From positions 186,001 through 250,000 of the forward strand of contig JAQGBZ010000006.1 of assembly GCA_034687125.1 (NCBI GenBank): DNA of 64,000 bases, read 5' to 3'. Shown here one piece after another: positions 37,705-61,708 of this stretch (positions are counted from its first letter, which is position 1; each line of letters begins with the position of its first letter). Origin of the DNA: Neelides folsomi. Lineage: Eukaryota; Arthropoda; Collembola; Neelipleona; Neelidae. Both the position numbers and the translations under genes were made by a program. Under the pieces are notes generated by a model. The model ran no database searches. It was not told the DNA's origin and saw only the letters and a program-made list of their open reading frames with translations.

Positions 37705-40700
37705 CTACTTCACCGGGGTTCGTCGGATAATGAGAGGAGTCGTCGAAGGAGAAAAGCTAAGCGTGTATGTACCGCCTCCGCCCCCAGTTGGGTGACACAA
37801 GTAATTCCCTTGAACTGATGTGATTGTCCCAAACTCAAGGCCATCCTCACTCACAAGCGTCGTTGATTTGTGAATCTTTTGGTCATGGGGTCTCTGTAAA
37901 ATATAAAATTAATTTTTAATCAAAATGCAAGAAATATAGTAAATCGAAGAAATTAATGAAAGATTGATATCAACTTACATTGAGGGCAGCGTGGACTTGT
38001 GCAGCAGTGGGAGCTGACCCGGACGATGTGACGACATAAGTTTCTGTTCCGGTAAGGGAGTCGGATGAGATGCCTCTTGAACGGCGTGATGCCAATTGTG
38101 CCGCAGAGAGCCCAAGGGGTGTTGCAGGTTCGGAAAAGTCTTCTTCTTCGTCTTCATCAGAAGCAGCGTTTCCACTGTAATCCCTTTTCAATTCTCCACG
38201 CTCAATCATTTCAAGGTTTTCTATTAAAATTAAAATTGATTAGTTTTTCATAATAGATAAAAATCATTTATAAAATGGCAAATTCTAAAAAAAATAGCTT
38301 TATTATCGTATTATAAACTCACCAGGGTCAGACATGGCTCTCCTAATGGCAAGGGGATCCTTCCTTGACCATTTTTGAACCTCTTCGTCCATTTTATGAA
38401 TCTTTGCTGGGTTAAGGGCCCAAAGACAACCTTTCCTCGCTCCATTTCCAGGCTTTTCAATCTTCTCAAAACATTTGTTTAGGCTCAGATTGTGCCTTAC
38501 ACTGTTCTTCCATCCACTTGGAGCAGTTTTGAAGTACGGAAAGTGATCACTATAAAAAACAAATGAATATTAGCACTTTTTTATCATTTTATGTATCCCA
38601 CCCATTGTCGTTAAGTCAGTTAGTCAGACAATTGAGGAAATTGGATAATAAAACGAATTAAAAAAATATAGTTACTTACCACATGAACTTGTAGATTTCG
38701 GAAACAGGAAGAGATCCAGTCTTCGAGTTCTTGAGAGACATGGCGATGAGACAAGAATAGGAAAACGCAGGTTTCGGGTAAATCTTGCCATCGATATGGG
38801 GCTGAGGTTCGTGCTTTTGTTTCCTCTTCTTTGGAGGTGGGCCTTCGACAATGGGGATTGGTCGTGGATGTTGGATATTGATAAATTCGGGTTCTTCTAC
38901 CGGGTCATATTCCGGTTCTGTCGTTGGGGAAGGTGACCTCGAAGCTCCATCAGAGGTACTTGGAACAATCCACGTTTGTAGCCCATTTCCTATCAATTCA
39001 CTCTCGCTCCCATCTTCGTCCTCATCTTCCGTTCCAAGAGAGTCTGCGTCACCGATTTCGCTCCCACTTGCACAAGAGGCTGAAGCGGAAGAACTCACCG
39101 ACACTGGGATGATGCTTGATGGATCAACCTTTTAAATAAAAACAATTTTATCAATTATTGATATTTCACTATCATTATATGAATTCGTTAAAATTATTCG
39201 CAGGCAAAAAAATGATGCAATAATTAATAAAATTTAGATATCTTTATTAATTCCAATATTGACCTCATCATCACCAATTTCTTCCAAGTCAAAACCGGTA
39301 TAAGCATTTCTTTTAATATTCGTCTCTTGAATACTTGTATCATAATACTCATCCTCATTCTCAACTTCCTCAACATCACTATCCCCTGTCAATCCTGGTG
39401 GAAATTTCCTTACGAACCAAGGCCGTATAAACCGCTCCGCAATAATGAACTCATGCTCATCGTCCAAATTAACTTCATTTACAACGCCCGCCTCTTCCAA
39501 TTCGAACTCATCCTCCTCACCCTCACTATCCTCAACCACAAAGCACTCAACATCCCCGTCCTTTGTCGCACATCGACTCATTTTAATATTTTAAAATGTC
39601 TCAAAGTTTCAATAAAATAGAATTCTAAAAAGTAGTTCTAAAATCTACGCATAGCGTATATCTTCCAAAACTTCCAATATATGACGAAATTGAATTTATC
39701 ACGTTCTCAGAACGTCGTATCGTTCTGTAATCTGTACGAAAACACCAAGACAAAAGATAACAACGAGCACCGAACCCTGCACAATTTCCCTCCAAAAATT
39801 CTTTTAACAAATCTTCCTTTTTCAGCCCAGCGTCTTCACCGCCCCAAGTCGAAACTTCTTAATTGAACAAACCTCCCTCAATATGAGAGATAGCGAACCA
39901 TGCAGATCCGATCTATAGATGAGAAGAGCAAGGGAGAAGGAGAGAAAGAGTAAAATCGTTGGCTAGCGTCGAGGGTGGTGGCGCTTGGGAGCTCAAGGGC
40001 AAACCAAACTTCCCCCATCTACTTTATATACGTCAAGTTACGAGAAATTTTTAGCCGTGCGAGACATGAAAAACAAGGGGAATAGACATGAAGCATAGAA
40101 CATAAGCCATAGCCATAAGCCATGAATGCATGGGTATATAATTCAGTATAGGTATAGGATCTATAAGGCTGGCTCATTGGCTCATTGTCCGCGCAGCTTG
40201 TATGCACTGTGCCTGTGTCTGTGGCTGAATGACCCTTTTTAATTATTATTTATCATTATCACTCGTTCGCCATAGGTCAATTAACATGTTTACTGCATTA
40301 ATTCTTTAGATTCTATTGCAATTTGCCAGATTTTTAATGCTATTTCGGTAATATCTTTCCTAACTATTGGGGCAAAAGGTAAAAGCCGCCAAACAAAGGC
40401 CTCTTTTCGACACTTTTATCCTAACCTATCCTAACTAACCTTCCCTAAATAACTAACCCAAATATATGAAAATATACCATTGATGGGACAAATTTCTTGT
40501 AAATATACTTCCATCTGTTTTATATCATGCCATGTCTTATCTATTGGGACTACTTATTTTATACTTATTCCTAATTTAAGTTAATTTCTCAAACGCCTAA
40601 ACCGTTTTATTTTAAAATTAAATTATTCTGGTGTAAGAAACTTATATGATAAAACAGTTCATTAACTTTTTAACTATTTTCGTATTTCGCTTTATAAGAT

Positions 40701-41156: not shown

Positions 41157-42981
41157 TTTCGTCTAAAAGAATGAATTTAATAAATCACCCAGTCATACCA
41201 TTCATTCCATTCATTCAAAACATATCTAAATACACTCTCTGATTGTGAAAGTTCTAAGTCCTTGACTAAGGGTACGAAAGTTGAAGCGGATTTTATAGAA
41301 TAATTGAGGATTTTGTTTTAATTAGATTTAGTTAGGAATTGATTTTATATATCAGTGATAAATAATTAAATACTATTTTATACAAATGACAAATAGTCAT
41401 CAAAGTCGATTGTATAAATAAAATCAGTCAATAAGAAAAAAAATTATTTATAGTTGTTATTTTTTTTATTTCATAAGGGTCAATAATTGCATAAATATCA
41501 CAATACGTTTGTAAGATGATAGTATTAGATTGTAAATATTATGAAGTGTACGTTTTGTATCATATGCCTCAACTTGCCACTATTATTGAGGATTAGATTA
41601 GTCTTATATAGAAGTCTATGAAGAATATCGAATATGTATGGCTCCCTCCTTTGTTCTGCATTGGCCGCCTCTCAAATATTTTGGAGGGACCGCGGCGCGG
41701 GAGAAATTTTTCCGCCAAACCTCTCCCGACAATCTAATTTTTTGGCACTAAACGATTCCAGGAAAAATTCCGCATCGAAAGTACCCTGGGTCAAAGGTCG
41801 GCGGAGTAAAAAGGGTGTAGAAAACCGGCGGGGAAAACCGGCGAGTAACCCGAGAAGAGGATATTCTGAAGGCCTTTTCTTTTCCCACGTCACCCCTTCT
41901 CCTCCACTCAAAACCCGGGTGACAATGGTCAAGGGAGGGTTGGGAAGTGGAGAAATAAATAATCCAAGACTGACATACCTTTTTCCGGGTCAGGGGATAT
42001 TTGCCGGGGCGGGGAGTGTCGGCTGGTCGGCGGATAGGTCGGGGAGCTCAGTGTGTGTGTTATTCCTCTATTCCCTGCCAACAGTCCTCTGGCCGCTACA
42101 ACTCGGAATTCGTTCCCTCGTTGTAGTGGAAAGGGATAGACCAACCATGGCGCCCAGCCCCATCTCCATACCTTCTCCTCTAAATATTGGAAATTCAACA
42201 GTAATTAGAAGACCCATCCTACAGCTCCCATCCATGGTTCAAAATAAAGCCCATCATCTCCTCTTCGTCATTGTGTAAAAAGTGAGACCGGCGGGGACAG
42301 GGTTCCGGCGGGAGCCGGGTGGGAAATCGGGGACTTGTTGAGAAGGGCAGGATAGGAAGGGTCCAGTTATGCTCGTAGGGGGAGGAACCATTCGGGTGTC
42401 TGGACAAGGAGACGAGGCGCAGGATATATGCTATATAAATCCAACCTTCACCCTTCTCTTCTTCGTCCAGCTTCAAGACAGCTCCCCCTCCCTTCAATGA
42501 CATGTATTTGGAGAACAAAAGAAAAACATCCAGAGGAAAATTAACAAATTATGCAAAATAATTAACCTTTTTTCTTCTTGAACTTCTTTTGGTTGTAAAA
42601 TGATTGGAATGAATGTGGATATGATGGCACTTATACAATTTATAAGAATTCCTAACATTTTAATTGACTTTCTTAAATATAAATAAAAGTGGTAAAAATA
42701 TGGAATGCTTTTTTGATAAAATGAACTAAAATTTAAAGTTGCGAGTAAATAAATAAATACGGGCATTAATAAATGCTTAATTTTGGTCATTCTATTTGCT
42801 TTTGAACTTCATTTTGTAGGTAAACCTATTGAAATTAATTGATATTAAATATCAATTATTTTACCATAAGATGAAGATAGTTGATAATGTCGATTGTCGA
42901 TGCTTATAATTTATAACTAGTAATTCGTGATTGCCTTTGGTCCGAGCGATTGAAGAGATTTGTGGGTTTTACATTTTCTTA
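41157..42981. promoter_or_regulatory. GC-rich region upstream of FoxN, likely promoter/CpG-type island
   Basis: From about 41640 to 42480 the sequence is far richer in G, C and CpG than the rest of the window. It repeats the motif CCGGCGGG or close variants (near 41830, 42290, 42305). It lies 0.5-1.3 kb upstream of the FoxN ATG and downstream of the aminoacylase-1 stop. A 214-codon plus-strand frame (41634-42278) crosses it but looks like a by-product of the high GC. The part 42500-42981 is AT-rich and holds the 3' flank of aminoacylase-1. Confidence 0.45.
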
Positions 42982-45435
42982 TTAATGCTTTGGAACATTA
43001 AAAATGTTTGCCAGGATCTTCTCGTAAATCTCAATGCCTTTTAGGAACACATTTTCATTTAGAAACTCGTCATGATCATGGAGGAGAATTGGAGTGTTGT
43101 TCATCGGTGAGAAGCCGAGAGCTGGAATTCCGACCTGCCTCAAATAACGAATATCCGTTGCAGCTGGGAATATCAGCTCATTCAAAACACAGCCCCTAAA
43201 TTAAATGAAGCAATTATCGTAAATGATATTGAAACACACCTCTCGTAAATAATATCCGTCCGTTCCGGCAGGAAATATAAGGAGGTTGTACTTTAAACCT
43301 CTGAGGATGTACATCGTAGACGATAAACGAATAAACATAAATATTAGTTTTGATTAACCTAGCTAGGTAATAAGTTAACAATTATATTATACATGTATAT
43401 CAAAGACAGCTTATAAAATTCTAATTACATCTCGTCGCAAGTTTTTTTGAAGGTTATCCACCAGGGATTGGAATCGTCCAGTTTTGTCGGTTCTGTGACA
43501 TTCGTTTTTTGAATAAAAGTATATGTCACACCAGAACCAGCATTAGATATAATTGACTCAAGTTTTTTGTGGAAATCTTCATGATTCCACATTGGAGTGA
43601 TTCGAATGTCAAAGACAACGGAAAGCTCTGAAGGAACAACATTTGGTTGACATCCACCCTAAATACAAGAAAATAACAATAAAGACAACAATAGGCTTAA
43701 TGGGTAATAAAAGTAATAATAAATAGTTAATTATCTTTCAATGTTTTAAAATTAAATTTTTTTAAATGAATATATGATATTTTGATATTTAATATTTTAG
43801 AAATTTAATATTTTAGAAATTGCTTTCACAAGCATATTTGCAAACACAAGTGATACCTCAAGCATGGTTAAGTTAATTGTTGTCACATCTCCAAGATTCA
43901 ATTTAGGATCAGATTCAAGACGCGCTTTTTCAGAAGCTCGAATTTCCATCATACTATTCAAAACTTTGTGAATCTTCTCAGCTGCTGTATTATTGTGAAG
44001 CAAAGAGCCATGGCCAGTTTGACCTGTTGCAGTCACCTTTATCTCTACAATAAATAAATTCGAATTAATGTTGTAAAATAGCCTTACTAACGTATATGTT
44101 CCTCATGTCCATTATATTTATTAATAACTTCTTCATTCTCTCATCCTTTGCATGTTTCGCCTTAAATATAGTATTTAGTCATTCATAAAAGAAATCATCA
44201 ATTATGCTTATTGATAAAGATGTGATAAAGATTGTTTATAAAGATTACTTACGCCAAATCGCCCTTTCTCCATAAAAGACATCAAAGGAAGAAGCGGGGT
44301 TTGCAATACCTTCATCAAGGGCAAATCCAATATTTAAATCTTCAAATGCCTTAGTTTTGATGAATGGACAAACACCTTTGTAACCTCCAACCTCTTCATC
44401 TATTTAAGAAATATTCATAAACATAAATAACACAATTCCCAATTTGTGAATTTATTTATTTTGTATTTAAAATAATGGTCAATTTAATTATTACATACCT
44501 GGTGCAAAAGCGACATGGACAGTTCTAAGAGGCGAAAACCCTTGGGCTTTAAGTCTTTTGATTGCTTCCAAATATTGAACTCCAACACATTTCATGTCCT
44601 GAGACCCTCTTGCAAAAATGTTACCCTTTTCGTCCTTATAAGCTGAAAATGGATCACGAGTCCATCGACTCTGTTTTATACGAATAATAAATCAAATTGT
44701 AAAAACGCTTCTACTCCTACACAAAGTCAAATCCATCGATGTCAAATGACAAAACAATTTTAAACAAATATACAAACAAGCAAAACATGTAAATTGTTAA
44801 TGGCATTGTCAAAATCTTACATAATCAACAGGAACGACATCGAGATGACAATAGAGGAAGACAGACGAAAGAGTTGGATCGCGACCCGCCCATGTCAGCC
44901 ATGTAACAAACAATGCCGGAGGCTCGAGATGATGGATGTTGAATTCCAATCCAATATCTTTTCCTTGTTCTTTGATCCATTCGATACAGCCATCTGAGCA
45001 AATACAAATTATTTTTGTGAAGAATGTCTTAATTCTCTTAATTATTAACAAGAATATCAAAATATGTCTCATATGTTTGACAATGTTAGCTTATCTTATA
45101 TGCATATGCCGTAGCATATATGCATTTATTCATGTTGCATCATGCATCTATATACAACTGATTGATATCCAAATGACAGGCACCATTTTATAACTAATTA
45201 ACTTCCATATAATTTCTTAGTAAAAATGGATTGACCATAAGTAGATAAAAGTAAATATTTAATCAAAATATGTTAAAAGTTATGTAAAGTGAAAATGAAA
45301 TTGATAGGATTAAATCTATAGCCAATAAGTAAAAGTGAAAATGGATATTTCAACTTTCATACCATAATCGGGATCCGGATGATTGGACTTGATTTTCAGA
45401 AAGTTTCTGAAATTGGTGACTGCCGGGTCTTCCAT
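42982..45435 (-). CDS. ACY1: Aminoacylase-1 (N-acyl-L-amino-acid amidohydrolase, M20 family), 398 aa
   Basis: Exons 45435-45363, 44993-44821, 44670-44499, 44399-44253, 44044-43857, 43658-43429 and 43195-42982; phases all match. It removes acyl groups from N-acetylated amino acids in the cytosol. The dinuclear zinc ligands and catalytic residues of the M20 family are all present: CHLDVVPV (His74, Asp76), [10 protein letters not shown] (Asp107), DEEVGG (Glu141/Glu142), LDEGIANP (Glu169), and LLHDHDE near residue 367. The dimerisation domain includes [10 protein letters not shown] and DDSNPWW. Length is close to the 408 residues of the human enzyme, so it appears complete. It is head-to-head with cereblon. 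Two of its introns carry diverged copies of its own coding sequence. Confidence 0.93.
43201..43300 (-). pseudogene. Duplicate (alternative or relict) terminal exon of aminoacylase-1
   Basis: In the last intron, 43237-43284 encodes [16 protein letters not shown], matching [16 protein letters not shown] of the true last exon (43132-43179) at 11 of 16 residues; 29 of 48 bases agree, with most changes at third positions. A CAG acceptor at 43303-43301 would join exon 6 in the correct phase and read on to TAA at 43201. The product would lack the catalytic LLHDHDE end. It is therefore either an alternative terminal exon giving an inactive form or a relic of exon duplication. Confidence 0.65.
44099..44145 (-). 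pseudogene. Possible relic of the aminoacylase-1 exon 5 coding sequence
   Basis: In the intron upstream of exon 5, the minus strand reads [14 protein letters not shown], in register with [14 protein letters not shown] of exon 5: 5 of 14 identical and 6 more conservative. The 47 bases align without gaps at 27 positions. No acceptor allows it in frame, so if homologous it is a dead copy. Weaker than the duplicate in the last intron. Confidence 0.35.
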
Positions 45436-53261: not shown

Positions 53262-55480
53262 TCAGAAGTCGATGACAGTATAGGGAAAGATATGAAGTTC
53301 CTCACTGACTCTCACCATCTCATGCCACTCACGGAAGACTCCATCCATATCATAGTTCCCATTAAGTCCTTCTATGTGCTCCTCATGGAGTCGATCCACG
53401 GCCTCGGGAGGAACTTCAACAATCACTTTTTCCTCTTCTTTCTCCTCTTCCACCTGGTCAATTTCCATCAGAGTGACCGGAGACTTCCAACTGATTGCAA
53501 TCTGCTCAACAATGTTAGGTTTCTCTTCTGCTACGACTTCAGGTTCCAGAGGAGAGGTTGGATCTAGCGACTGGTAAAGAGACTCAGGTTGTAGCAATTC
53601 CTCCACTTCCTCTTCCTCCTCTTCCTCAGAATCCGAGTCGCCCCAGTCGATCAGACTCTTGGTTTTCTCCTTCTTAACTCTCGGCCTTTTCCGGACTATT
53701 GTTGTGGAGAAGAGGGAGGTCGGGACAGGGGTGAATGGGATTGTCCCGGTGTTCGGTTCAACTGCATTCATATTTCCCAATAATATTGAGCTTTTATTCT
53801 CAAGTGGGGCTGAAGGATGTTGGACATTTGGATTGTAAATCGACATTTTCCCTTCACCTCCGAGTGGTTCTTCCTCGGATCGCCAGAACCCGTCAAAATT
53901 TTTAAAGTTCTCCAGCGTGGATGCATCAATTGGTGGGAGTCTCGCGAGGATGTCCAGCTCACTCGCCCAAGCACGGCTCTCCCTCTCACTCTTCTCCCCA
54001 AGAGGAGGTTTGGAAGGAAGGACATTGCTGGGCTCCTTTTCCCTTAGAGCCTTTGTATGTTTGTGCCCTCCTTCTCCGTCCAACTCGTCCTCACCAGCCC
54101 TTTCCTCCCCGTTGGTTGCGATAGGAGTGTTGGGGTGAGGGGGAATTGGTCGCTTGCGCGGTCTCCCGCGACTCCTCGGCGGTGGGAGTTCGACAGGAAG
54201 GACCGAGGGAGACGGTGGGGGAGGATGACTTAAGGCTTCTGACGCTTCCTTCTCCATCTTTGACCGAAGTTCCTTTTGGGTTTTGAAGTAGGAGTCAATC
54301 ATCTCCGTTCGGATTAGCTTGTCCTCAGAGTCGAGAGAAGCATCTTGAGCGACGGACAGCCGAGCCATTTTCTCGCGACTCGGGGTGACCACATTTGTCT
54401 TCTCTGAGAAAGAGGATTGGACTTTGGGGGGTAAGGAACCGAAACGGCCTTCAGCCTTTGCTTTCGCAATCTGCTTCCGGAGCAGGTCAGCTAATAAACC
54501 AACAAATTAATATTGAATTGTTGAATATAATTCCGAAAATTATACACATTCAATTTAAAAAACATTCATTTATCAAATAACAAATAATCAACTAACGTTA
54601 AACAAATAATTTTATTTTGAAATTGTGTTAACTATTTATAATTTATTACTATTTATAATTTATTAACATTAAATGTTAGTGCCAATTGCCAATTCATTAT
54701 AAATTCTATTGCATAAATATTTTAGATAATTGTTTTTCAAATGATAATGGAAATAGACGTGTAATGTAAGTGTCAATCACCTTCAGCATATGTATCATTT
54801 GATTCTCTCCTCCGTCTCTTTCTTGGTTTCGGAGGAGTGACGGCTTTTGGCGGTGGTTCAGGGACAGGACAGCCACCATGACCACTCGTTGCCGAGTTTT
54901 CCCCAGGCTGAAATGTCGTGACAAGACAGATTGGTCAAAAAGAGAAGCAGACAGAAGAAAGAAGTAGGAGACAGTTCATAATCCCAAATTTCCCACCTGA
55001 TCATCGTTGGTGGGGTTTAGGCGCTCAGCCTCGTTCTCGTCCCCGTCGGCGGTGGGTTCTTCGCCCAACTCGGCATCATTTCCCCCGATCCCTTCGACCT
55101 ATAAAAAACCTCATTAAAATCTCTTTACTCCCTTCTACTCTCAATTAGCCAAAAATCTCCGGTGAAAAATCAGCCCGAGCTGTTGGGGGGTTGTCTCGTG
55201 AGGGTGTGCAGGAGTGGAAGAGTGTATGGAGGCGGCCTTTACAGCGCCCTAACTGGGTCAAGGGTCGGGGCGTCGGGTCGAGGGGTGGGTCAGGGCTTAC
55301 GGGGTGGTCGGGCGGGGTGCCATTGAGGACGGCGGGTATGTGGGTGAGCGGGGGCCGCTGCATTCGGGCGGCCGGTGCCAGGGTCCCAACTCCCTCGCCC
55401 TCCCTCTCCTGATGGCGGACTTGGACTGGGGAGGCGAGAGGCGGCTCTGCATCTCGCACCCACGGATACGCTGACACACA
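53262..55480 (-). CDS. MED26: Probable Mediator complex subunit 26, 5' end not identified
   Basis: Exons 55480-55301, 55098-54997, 54907-54781 and 54490-53262; phases 0, 0 and 1 match and give 545 codons, all open. The C-terminus (DRLHEEHIEGLNGNYDMDG, EWHE, ELHIFPYTVIDF) resembles from memory the conserved MED26 C-terminal domain (NG...DWT...LNILPYV), which docks the protein on the Mediator core. The middle has basic nuclear-type stretches (PRKRRRR, SRGRPRKRP), an acidic run with seven Glu (SEEEEEEEVEE) and DILARLPPID. In other species MED26 begins with a TFIIS N-terminal helical domain; none is visible upstream, where ISCA1 begins on the other strand. The first exon listed is GC-rich and the least certain. 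The start codon is unknown. Confidence 0.55.
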
Positions 55481-57038: not shown

Positions 57039-60000
57039 TTAATCCTCTCCGAATTCGTCGACTTCTTCGTGTCCTTCATCTTCATCTACAAAAGAAATAT
57101 TTAAAAATTAGTTTTAATTCCTTTATTTATTAATTTGTTGATTTTACCAATTGCTTGCTTCTTTCTTGTGTATGCTCTTTTGGCTAATGGTGGTGGGTTA
57201 TCGGATTCTCCATGCATGAGGGAATTCCTGTACGAATACAATGGCTGCCAATGGGCTCCTTGACTTGATGGCGTAGCTGACCCAACACGTTGGTCAAGAT
57301 ATTGCAACACGACTCGTTTGTCTTGCTTGAGAAGTTTATTGGTAAATTCTGAGAGAATTTCGAGGAAAGCGAGGTTCGGCGGAGGACCAGTTGGATCATT
57401 GGGATTTTCAAGTGGATTTACTGAAAAGAGAATTCCTTCTCTGTGAAGAGCAGTAATTGCATCTCGATTCCGAACAGCGTCGAGTCCAAATGAGAGGGCA
57501 AATCTCTTAGCCAAATCCTATGTAAAATATACATTGTGTTATAAAATTTTATTTATTAAACTTTACAAATAGTTCGTATAAATAATAAGTTATTTGTCAA
57601 TTAATTAAAAATACCAAGTTTTAGTAAATTATTTAAATTCATACCTTGAGAGCAATGAAATCGTCTTGCTGCCGATCCACCATCCAATTGCTGACTTTGG
57701 GCAAATCGTTGTACAAAGTAGTAAGGCTTACTACCATGGTCAATGCACAATTGACTTTATTGATCTCTCTCGCCTTCCCAAGTGTTGCTTTGATTATGTC
57801 TCCGTAATCATTGTAATTCTATAAGAAGGAATATTATTTTGCAATACTTACAACTTACATGGATGGAATTTTTAACATTAGTCTAGCTTTATTAAAAGAT
57901 GGTTTTAATTTAACCATATTGAATTTTTTTTTATTTACCTTCACATAGTATTTGAAGACATCGGAGGCTGCACTCGTTGGCATTACGTTGTACACAACTA
58001 GTTTGCAAAACTGAGCCAAAAAGCTTCTCATTTTATGCAACACTTCGATTTTGGCATGCTCGTCTGGATCATCGGCTAAAAATATTATAAAATAAGAATT
58101 AATAAATTGATCGTCTTAAATTTATAAATTATAACAGAAGTGTTCATTGTAATTAAAAAAAATTTTACCATCTCTGTCGTCTGAAAAAACATTCGCTTGC
58201 ATGAAATTATTGAGGAGTCTTTGCAATTCGAGAGTAGGATTAAAAACAAGAGTTTCCATCCATTTTTGAGTTGCGAGTTGCTCGCAGAAAACAATCAGAG
58301 CATCGCATATTGATGTGTATGCCTCCTCTTGGAAATTTCCTTCGTGGGAAAGCCTGGAACCAGCGGCGAGAATCGTCTTCATAGCGTCCATATAATCATG
58401 AAGCTTCCTTCGAAGTCTTGGAACATCGTCTGTCCCAATCACACCAGCATCACCCTTTTCTTGAATGTTTTTCAGATCCCAGAGAAGTGTGAAATAACAT
58501 GCAGAAATTGCACTTTTTACAGCCTACACATGAAATTAAATTAGGTCAAGTTTAAATACAATTTGTGATCAAATCGATGAATTAAATATTATTTGTAATT
58601 GAGATTAAATTTACATCAGGATGATAAGTTGGTTGTCCGCCTTCACAAGTAGTTTTGATAATTCTGAATAATTTATCCCAAATATCTGACTTGTCAAATG
58701 AATGACATCCAGCAAAAATGGAGATTTTTCTCAAGTTCATCGTGAGGTTGTATACTTCGTCTTCATCTGGTTCAGTATCCTTATTTATAAAAATTGTGTT
58801 AATTAACATAAAATTATTTGTATTTTGCGTTAGAATTAAAAATTAAGTTTATTACTTCTTCGCAAGCAGATTCTTCAAATGCGTCAATCGCGTCCGTAAC
58901 TTTATTCCAGATGGAATCGAGAACATTCATCAATGCAACTTCAGTTCGACTTGATTTCCTGGCATCATCACAACAGATCACTTCAAGTGTTTTTGCAGCC
59001 ATTTCCAGTACTTCTGTTTCTGTGTGAAGTTCAGCAATTTCTCTGATAAGTTCAAGAAGTTGCTCAAGTGCCTTTTCTTGTCTTGAAGTCGTATAAATTT
59101 CCAGGTCGAAGAATTGAGGCAAAGCGAGCAAATTAATCACCTAAAAATAATGAAGTGTTATTATTTAAAATTGTAAATAATTGCCATCAGTAAATTAATT
59201 ATAATTAATTAAAAGGTCAATTTACCTTCTCAGAATCAGCCCTGTATTTTTTGAGAAGTTGAGGAAGTGATGGAATAAAATGTTCAGTAAGTCGCAATTT
59301 GTCGTCCGACACTTGTTTGAGTTCTTTAGCTGAGAGAATCTTCCTTGTTGGTCCACGACCAATTGGAGGTTCCCCAGACGCACATTGCTTCACTGCACAA
59401 ACCATAATTTCAATCAAGCTTGTCTCTTGCTTGTTATCCAAAGCTTCTTCATTTGGCCCAGGTTCTTCAAGGAGCAAATCCGTCATCGTCTCCCAATCCT
59501 TCATCATGGGATTTGATTCGATGAGCGAATCGACCAAATAGGCTCCATGTTCATGGAGTTCAGATTCAATGAAAAATTGAACAAGATCTCTAATAAGAGG
59601 AGCATTCGCTTGCCGTTGTTTTCCTCTCCTCGTCTTCACCTGAAAATAATTTAATTAATTAATTAATTGTAAATTATGAAGCAGAAAGCAGATAGTTAAA
59701 TAAATTAGTCTTATAAACAATTAAATTAAACTTACATTTTCAACTAAACTTTCATCAACAACAAAAAGTCGCTCATTTAAAAATTCCCCAGCCGCTTGGG
59801 CCACTGCACGATGACTTGAATATACGAGCTCGTACACAAGTTCACAGTCCTTATCGTTCAAAATCTCCCTATGGTATTTATGAATGGAAATAACAAGCTT
59901 CACAGCCTGCACAGCAACATCATACTCTTTGTCCAAAGTCATGGCCACAATGCGATCCTTGAACTTGGAAGTGAAAAGCTCCAACTTCCCTTTCAGCTCT

Positions 60001-61708
60001 TCGGTGGAATAAAGGGGTTGCAGTGCTTGGAGACATTTCAATCGCACTTCCCCAACTTTGTCGTGAAGGGTCCACCCAATGTATTTTAAATACGAGTCAT
60101 CGAGGAAATTGGAATGAAACTTCTTCATCCAAACCCCAATCTCGCTCATACAAATGGATCTGATTTCGGGCAAGGTGTCTCGGTAGCGATGGACGAAAAC
60201 AGATTTGAACATGTAAGTCAACATATTTTTGATCTCGTCCATGTTCTCTTCCAATTCTTGCCGTTTGGTCAAGAGAAGTTCAAGTCTTTCAGATGCTCGC
60301 TTTGCTCCACCTTTCTGTCTTTCGGCATCGTACTGTCGTTGAGTGTTGTCGTGGTTGATGGAAACGGTCAAGGCGACATCAACTAAAGCAGTCATCAACT
60401 TCATTGCTAAAAATAATTAATCAATGATTACTATTTCTGTTAGCATAAATTATTTTATTTTAACAATAAAATGTTTAAAAAATTAATTGAGTGTATCATA
60501 CCTGCAAGAGTAGCTGTATGGCGAAATGCTCGAACTTGCGAATCAGAAAGACCAGTAAGAAGAGAAATTACATTGTCCATGAGATACTGGTCGTAGATGA
60601 TCGAATATTGGCATTGTTTCACGAGAGTTTGGACAAAGTCGCAAAAATTCCCTCGGAATTTCTTCCATTGCTGACCACTCATCACTAGAGGATATTCACC
60701 ACTTTCCTAAAAGTTAAATCAATTTATTTGTGAAATTAATTGAGTTAATTAATTAAATAAAGTTAACTTTGAATTCTATTTATAAGTAAGCTTATTTACC
60801 TCGTCGAACTCTTCTGTCATCTTTCTAATTATATGCGGATGTTCCATAGTCTTTTGCATTTCGGGTGAAATTCTTCCTTTGCATCCAGAGGCACTCACAA
60901 AGAATTGGATGAGTCGAAGAAGGGTCAAGTCTTTATTCAGCTTATAATCTTCAATCCAATCGTCCACAAGTTGCTAAAATAATTTGACATTTAAATTATA
61001 TACGATGATGAATTTTTTATATTATAGAAATAATTCGTTTTTGTGTAAAAAAATTTACCTGAATTGGCCGATTAGAAATAATTGCTTGATAGATCGAATC
61101 GTCTTCATCTCCAGTAGCTTCAGTTGTTGCTGCTTTTCGTCCACGGCCTCGACCTCCTCCCCTTTTAGGAGGAGAAGAATGAATTGAATCTTCAGGCGAA
61201 CTTGCTCGTCCTCCTCCACGACCTTTAATTTTATAATTTTACAACATTATTTAAACTTTACAAGATATATTGAGATAGATAAGATAAATAATTGCGATCA
61301 TATAAATTACCTCTCCCTCTTGGGATTCTTCCACCACGACCTCGTCCTCTTCCACGGGACGTTGACGGAGTCGGAAGAGGATCGCTCAAATAAGAACTGT
61401 TAAATGAGTGCGGCTGGAAAGTTGGATCAAATGAAGCAACAGTTGTGGGCTCAGCATCATATTCATTGAACACATCATTCCTAAATTGATAATAATATAA
61501 AACTTCATTGAATCCTAATATTAATTAACAGAAATACCTTTATAATAATTAAAATATAAAAAACTAATCAAGAAACATACTCGCTGAATAAAGTGTCATT
61601 CCCTTCATTTCCAGATTCTTCCGGTTGATTCGGCGTCATCGGATTATCGTATTCTGGAGGAGGATCGTCCATTCGGATCCTCTTCCCTCCCGTTCTTCGG
61701 AGCATCAT
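57039..61708 (-). CDS. STAG: Cohesin subunit SA (STAG/stromalin), 1152 aa, 14 exons
   Basis: Exons 61708-61581, 61480-61311, 61222-61059, 60973-60800, 60706-60502, 60406-59736, 59639-59226, 59140-58856, 58779-58615, 58523-58169, 58075-57939, 57818-57645, 57517-57148 and 57085-57039; all phases match. The protein is a HEAT-repeat scaffold that binds the RAD21 kleisin and helps cohesin entrap DNA. The N-terminus (about 55-125) is RG/RGG-rich ([18 protein letters not shown]) before DDWIEDYK. Highly conserved blocks are [37 protein letters not shown] and the stromalin domain at about 352-437 ([52 protein letters not shown]). The acidic C-terminus ends VDEFGED. It is about 80-100 residues shorter than human SA1/SA2. 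Whether other STAG copies exist in the genome is unknown. Confidence 0.96.
59651..59668. repeat. AATT tandem repeat in a STAG intron
   Basis: Four to five units of TTAA/AATT directly upstream of STAG exon 7 on the minus strand, in the short intron between exons 6 and 7. Confidence 0.8.

Follow-up and report, generated by a model that had tools for sequence, protein, structure and literature searches.

An exon-like, diverged copy of the last-exon start in the last intron of the aminoacylase-1 gene of Neelides folsomi

The aminoacylase-1 gene and its window

The window analyzed here, meaning the whole 64,000-nt stretch of DNA, comes from the assembly of Neelides folsomi (75.1 Mb, 840 contigs). 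It carries an aminoacylase-1 gene with the following layout:

42982..45435, minus strand: aminoacylase-1 gene, 7 coding exons, spliced translation of 398 aa
45435-45363, 44993-44821, 44670-44499 and 44399-44253, minus strand: exons 1-4
44044-43857, 43658-43429 and 43195-42982, minus strand: exons 5-7
43428-43196, minus strand: last intron of the gene, 233 nt

The 398-residue protein scores 545.6 bits against TIGR01880 (curated cut-off 338.6), which places it within aminoacylase-1. It matches the Pfam domains M20 and M20_dimer as well as human aminoacylase-1 (PDB 1q7l), with 52% identity to the human pieces in that structure, and His74, Asp107, Glu142, Glu169 and His367 are the counterparts of the human metal ligands as listed in PMC13058870.

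Also on the minus strand, at about 57104-60973, lies a gene for the cohesin subunit SA (STAG), with SCD, STAG and HEAT_SCC3-SA domains and close to human SA-1/SA-2, in which we read nine introns of 76-127 nt. An open reading frame at 38679-39131 (minus strand) encodes the beginning of a forkhead domain (Pfam PF00250, ORF residues 120-150; 28.9 bits, cut-off 27), and a 414-aa open frame at 53265-54506 (minus strand) marginally matches the Med26 C-terminal model (25.6 bits, cut-off 25). No Rfam matches were found in the 64,000-nt window.

Homology and codon pattern of the intronic copy

The last intron and the last exon contain four segments on which the analysis turns:

43300-43240, minus strand: copy A, exon-like and 61 nt long, entered in phase 2 and left in phase 0, in the last intron
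43196..43239, minus strand: spacer between A and B, 44 nt, shorter than all 15 introns read (76-369 nt)
43195-43135, minus strand: segment B, aligned in register with A and forming the opening 61 nt of the last exon
42982..43134, minus strand: segment C, the remainder of the last exon, carrying LLHDHDE and the stop codon

An earlier note had reported a 16-residue stretch in the last intron with 11/16 residues identical to the true exon, and our count from the translations gives the same figure. The diverged copy of the last-exon start that it described is real, but it was described as a read-through terminal exon only; the unit proves to be the 61 nt of A, ending at a GT donor. In protein register the alignment of A with B is gapless, both segments entering in phase 2 after exon 6 and both reaching phase 0, and 12 of the 20 residues are identical. 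Nucleotide identity is 33/61 inside the segments, compared with 7/30 just before and 6/30 just after them. Comparison of the translated 233-nt intron with the protein gave a best six-frame score of 57, which none of 2000 dinucleotide shuffles equaled (maximum 49) and which lies above the maximum of 50 among 305 further pieces of 233 nt taken from elsewhere in the window, outside the gene. The homology is thus confirmed: A is a genuine copy of the last-exon start.

The starts of A and B are 105 nt apart, and the distance from the end of A to an internal CAG of the last exon is also 105 nt. At the point where the homology ends, the sequence is GAG|GTGTGT in A and CAG|GTCGGA at the matching site of the last exon. 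The region before A has no detectable homology to the region before B (1102 of 2000 shuffles were as good), a result that is expected at this age, yet is no help to a 105-nt unit. A DNA repeat finder pairs 43138-43158 with 43239-43259 at a spacing of 101 (16/21 bases); the spacing in protein register is 105. A pair of compensating 4-nt indels turning Ile-Arg into Gly-Tyr could explain that shift, but was no better than chance (109/300 random-base controls as good), and allowing gaps improved the A/B alignment only when gap costs were set low.

The divergence between A and B bears the marks of selection on the encoded protein. The 20 codons comprise 3 identical, 9 synonymous and 8 nonsynonymous pairs, and the 27 base differences are distributed over codon positions 1, 2 and 3 as 6, 7 and 14, giving pS of 0.83 (beyond correction) against pN of 0.33. 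When the 27 differences were placed randomly, at least 12 identical residues were retained in 0/20000 trials, and when A was neutral and B limited to synonymous change, the observed pattern appeared in no more than 8 of 4000 runs for any of the seven divergences simulated. Removal of three disputable codons (possible indels) left 17, with 3 identical, 8 synonymous and 6 nonsynonymous. The claim of protein-level constraint in the earlier note, for which an excess of synonymous change in an alignment had been named as the test, is borne out by the third-position excess and by the 9 synonymous codons among those of the 12 identical residues. The codon pattern and the rejection of free drift since the duplication show that A was translated, and constrained at the protein level, for most of the time since the two copies parted. 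Long past constraint is no demonstration that A is read today.

With human as the outgroup (21 places), the private changes are 4 in A and 1 in B; this count leaves out the place of Thr347, a change in 1q7l that we take to be engineered. Their direction suggests relaxation in A, but they are few. A scan for relatives found none in viral contigs and, in genome contigs, only distant bacterial M20 enzymes with 21-28% identity (best 80 of 223); these served for the arginine column described below and are too distant for dN/dS.

Constraint on A need not have been exerted at its present site. A could be a fragment of a diverged aminoacylase-1 paralogue, introduced when tandem genes underwent unequal crossing-over or conversion, with the divergence accumulating between whole genes. 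We consider such an origin improbable. It would, as we infer, explain the constraint without alternative splicing, and also why there is a donor in A and none in B. However, a search with the full protein, the last exon and the A-C peptide found no second aminoacylase-1 locus in the 75 Mb assembly, and the donor paralogue must therefore have vanished or be unassembled. The gene is apparently single-copy, a status that is strong but not absolute because this search was a loose first look. M20 regions on C57 and C34 and short M20 loci on C186, C438, C3 and C626 were rejected as the source of A: they gave weak short matches to the protein or none, the last exon (residues 329-398) was reached by none of them, and they are taken for other M20 or related enzymes.

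Reading frames, splice sites and Arg344

Joining exon 6 to A and A to C produces an in-frame sequence of 398 residues in which LLHDHDE is kept. Joining A to B leads to a stop after five further residues, and a retained A-B stretch runs to a stop whose last base is 43201, giving a truncated end. The splice sites in question are as follows:

43301..43303, minus strand: CAG acceptor of A, score -3.6, below all 15 reference acceptors
43234..43239, minus strand: GTGTGT donor of A, score 5.3, above 4/15 reference donors
43135..43137, minus strand: internal CAG before GTC, candidate acceptor for an A-to-C splice, score -0.7; 105-nt intron

Scores were computed with small matrices built from 15 introns of the window (76-369 nt), six from the aminoacylase-1 gene and nine from the cohesin gene; the cohesin introns had a single candidate in 6/9 cases, and the best-scored candidate was used for the other 3. 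The donor score of A is reached by only 1 of the 54 GTs inside ACY1 exons and by 6% of all GTs in the window, although the donor reads GTG where the reference donors read GTA in 15/15. The would-be donor of B (CAG|GTCGGA) scores -1.4, below all 15 donors. On the acceptor side, the score of A is matched by 14/53 AGs inside ACY1 exons and by 30% of all window AGs; by general rules its acceptor stretch, CATCCTCAG, looks ordinary. The internal acceptor of C stands above only one of the 15 true acceptors (-1.0), and its score is reached by 5/53 ACY1-exonic AGs and 18% of all window AGs. An A-C intron would measure 105 nt, inside the range of the 15 introns, and an A-B intron 44 nt, below it. Only two branch-site-like CTRAY motifs occur in 43428-43130, at 43173 and 43344 (minus strand): the first lies inside B, ∼40 nt before the internal acceptor of C, and the second ∼40 nt before the acceptor of A. 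A CTGAT in B, ∼38 nt upstream of the internal acceptor of C, is a possible branch site. The evidence on present-day splicing of A is therefore mixed.

These frames bear on the isoform that the earlier note had proposed, a short terminal exon dropping LLHDHDE. In such a transcript exon 6 would join A, the following 44 nt would be retained, and the protein would end before LLHDHDE. The frame and the stop are present as described, with the CAG at 43303-43301 in phase with a junction 43429 to 43300 and the last base of the stop at 43201. We nevertheless regard this isoform as very unlikely, since the similarity to the last exon stops at the donor of A, neither AATAAA nor ATTAAA occurs in the stretch from A to the stop at 43201 (the sole match in 43240-42600 is at 42664), and the product would be without the metal-binding His, listed as H373 of human aminoacylase-1 in PMC13058870. 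These findings do not favor the proposal, and it had overlooked the in-frame splice from A to C.

The protein spliced through A would differ from the B form at nine residues, including Arg344 to Tyr. Against TIGR01880 the A form scores 537.9 and the B form 545.6, so that the nine changes cost 7.7 bits; some DapE-type models prefer A, as NF006399 does (123.5 for the A form against 114.0 for the B form). Introduced singly on the C-terminal piece, the changes alter the score by +1.1 to -2.4 bits, with the exception of Arg344 to Tyr, which costs 4.3 bits. The C-terminal piece of the A form scores 116.2 bits, above all four controls with changes at nine random positions (102.8-115.3). Random residues at the nine positions of A itself gave 112.5 to 118.8 bits. 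The changes in A thus sit at tolerant positions, but selection for these particular residues is not demonstrable, since 1/5 of the own-position controls (118.8) beats A.

The column of Arg344 holds Arg in 77/80 bacterial M20 relatives (best 80 of 223), a count over all 80 open reading frames picked by similarity, which replaces a motif-based count of 66/80 whose motif partly contains the Arg. In those 77 relatives the Arg stands 20 residues before the conserved His. HiDapE has the same spacing between the Arg329 and His349 listed in PMC13058870; a table there pairs Arg329 with aminoacylase-1 'R348', and the R348A variant of aminoacylase-1 is described as hydrolytically inactive, R348 being suspected to bind substrate. 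In its text, however, a single sentence names R276 as the counterpart of Arg329. The same table places Lys at the Arg329/R348 position in bacterial aminoacylases, so that the Arg is not fixed in all active enzymes. Counting from His373, the human residue is 350, and we therefore take 'R348' to be porcine numbering. Arg344 probably corresponds to the position at which the Ala variant lacks activity (R348A; PMC13058870). We found no literature on aminoacylase R353C.

Proposed alternative segments, a possible lost exon pair and known systems

Two readings account for most of these observations. The one we favor, tentatively and at somewhat less than an even chance, is that A is an old alternative to the 61 nt that open the last exon, and would give a full-length alternative form by splicing. 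The other, nearly as likely, is that A is a stranded relic; of the proposed uses of A, the truncated isoform is the least probable.

As a relic, A would once have formed a pair of alternative exons with B, until the intron between B and C, at LRx|VG, was lost and A, now partnerless, drifted for a brief time. This history is a serious possibility, with a probability approaching that of the reading we favor. B is without a usable donor, the acceptors for A and at the internal C site are weak, Arg344 is lost in A, and private changes are more numerous in A than in B. Moreover, free drift would leave the frame, AG and GT of A intact with a chance of ∼5% once 0.15 to 0.5 substitutions per site had accumulated, the value within this range being set by the assumed indel rate. 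On the other hand, A has no stop, frameshift or lost splice dinucleotide, the time that this history permits for drift is short beside the saturated synonymous divergence, and the loss of an intron is required.

The alternative full-length form that we favor could have arisen through a tandem duplication of a 105-nt unit consisting of 44 nt of intron end and 61 nt of exon and closing with AG|GT. Of the two resulting AG|GT sites, the one in the first copy would become a donor and the one in the second a possible acceptor. From its birth onward, a transcript would hold either A-C or the unsplit B-C in frame and never usefully both, and both products would be full-length aminoacylase-1. In the A form the substrate-binding stretch would be swapped, and an enzyme changed in this way may therefore be expected to bind another substrate or to serve as an inactive dimer partner. 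The complete scenario, in which one duplication carrying AG|GT made the intron and the alternative active-site segments in one step, and an Arg form and a Tyr form (for another substrate, or a dominant regulator of the dimer) coexisted until synonymous saturation, is more specific, and we hold it to be unlikely as a whole.

If A is used, a housekeeping deacylase would alter a substrate contact by splicing, not by gene duplication, and the 105-nt AG|GT geometry would be an example of an intron and an alternative exon with a joint origin. Should A instead be a relic, it would preserve the trace of an exon pair since lost, and would caution that an intronic excess of synonymous change is proof of use in the past but not of use today.

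In its whole protein and its metal ligands, the enzyme is the same as aminoacylase-1, M20A (TIGR01880; human 1q7l). The gene described here carries a further version of the PAATDxRYxR stretch in its last intron, and human aminoacylase-1 is not known to have one. In human ACY1, a phase-2 intron presumably interrupts codon 334, which corresponds to the position of the intron preceding B. PMC10017521 places c.1057 of human ACY1 in exon 14. We found no literature on an aminoacylase with mutually exclusive exons or exon duplication.

Introns can arise by tandem duplication of exon segments that bear AGGT. The present locus resembles such introns in having AG|GT at both copies and an intron of the unit length, 105 nt. 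It differs from them in that both copies kept coding sequence, so that the new intron would hold an alternative exon segment. Within the unit, 61 nt are homologous, and homology over the 44-nt part is not above that of shuffles.

The A/B pair shares adjoining homologous segments of equal length, frame and entry phase with tandem duplicated mutually exclusive exons, as these are described in PMC3228551, PMC9013439 and PMC9741552. Similar length, sequence similarity and compatible splice sites and frame are among the criteria for such exons in PMC3228551; here the lengths are 61 and 61 nt, the similarity is 12/20 residues, and A is flanked by AG and GT with A-C in frame, although its acceptor is weak. 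As in mutually exclusive exons, including both segments breaks the frame. In contrast to them, B forms no exon of its own and has no separate donor but is continuous with C, and a swap would need an acceptor inside the exon. A and B belong with tandem duplicated exons in kind, but lack this one tested feature of mutually exclusive exons.
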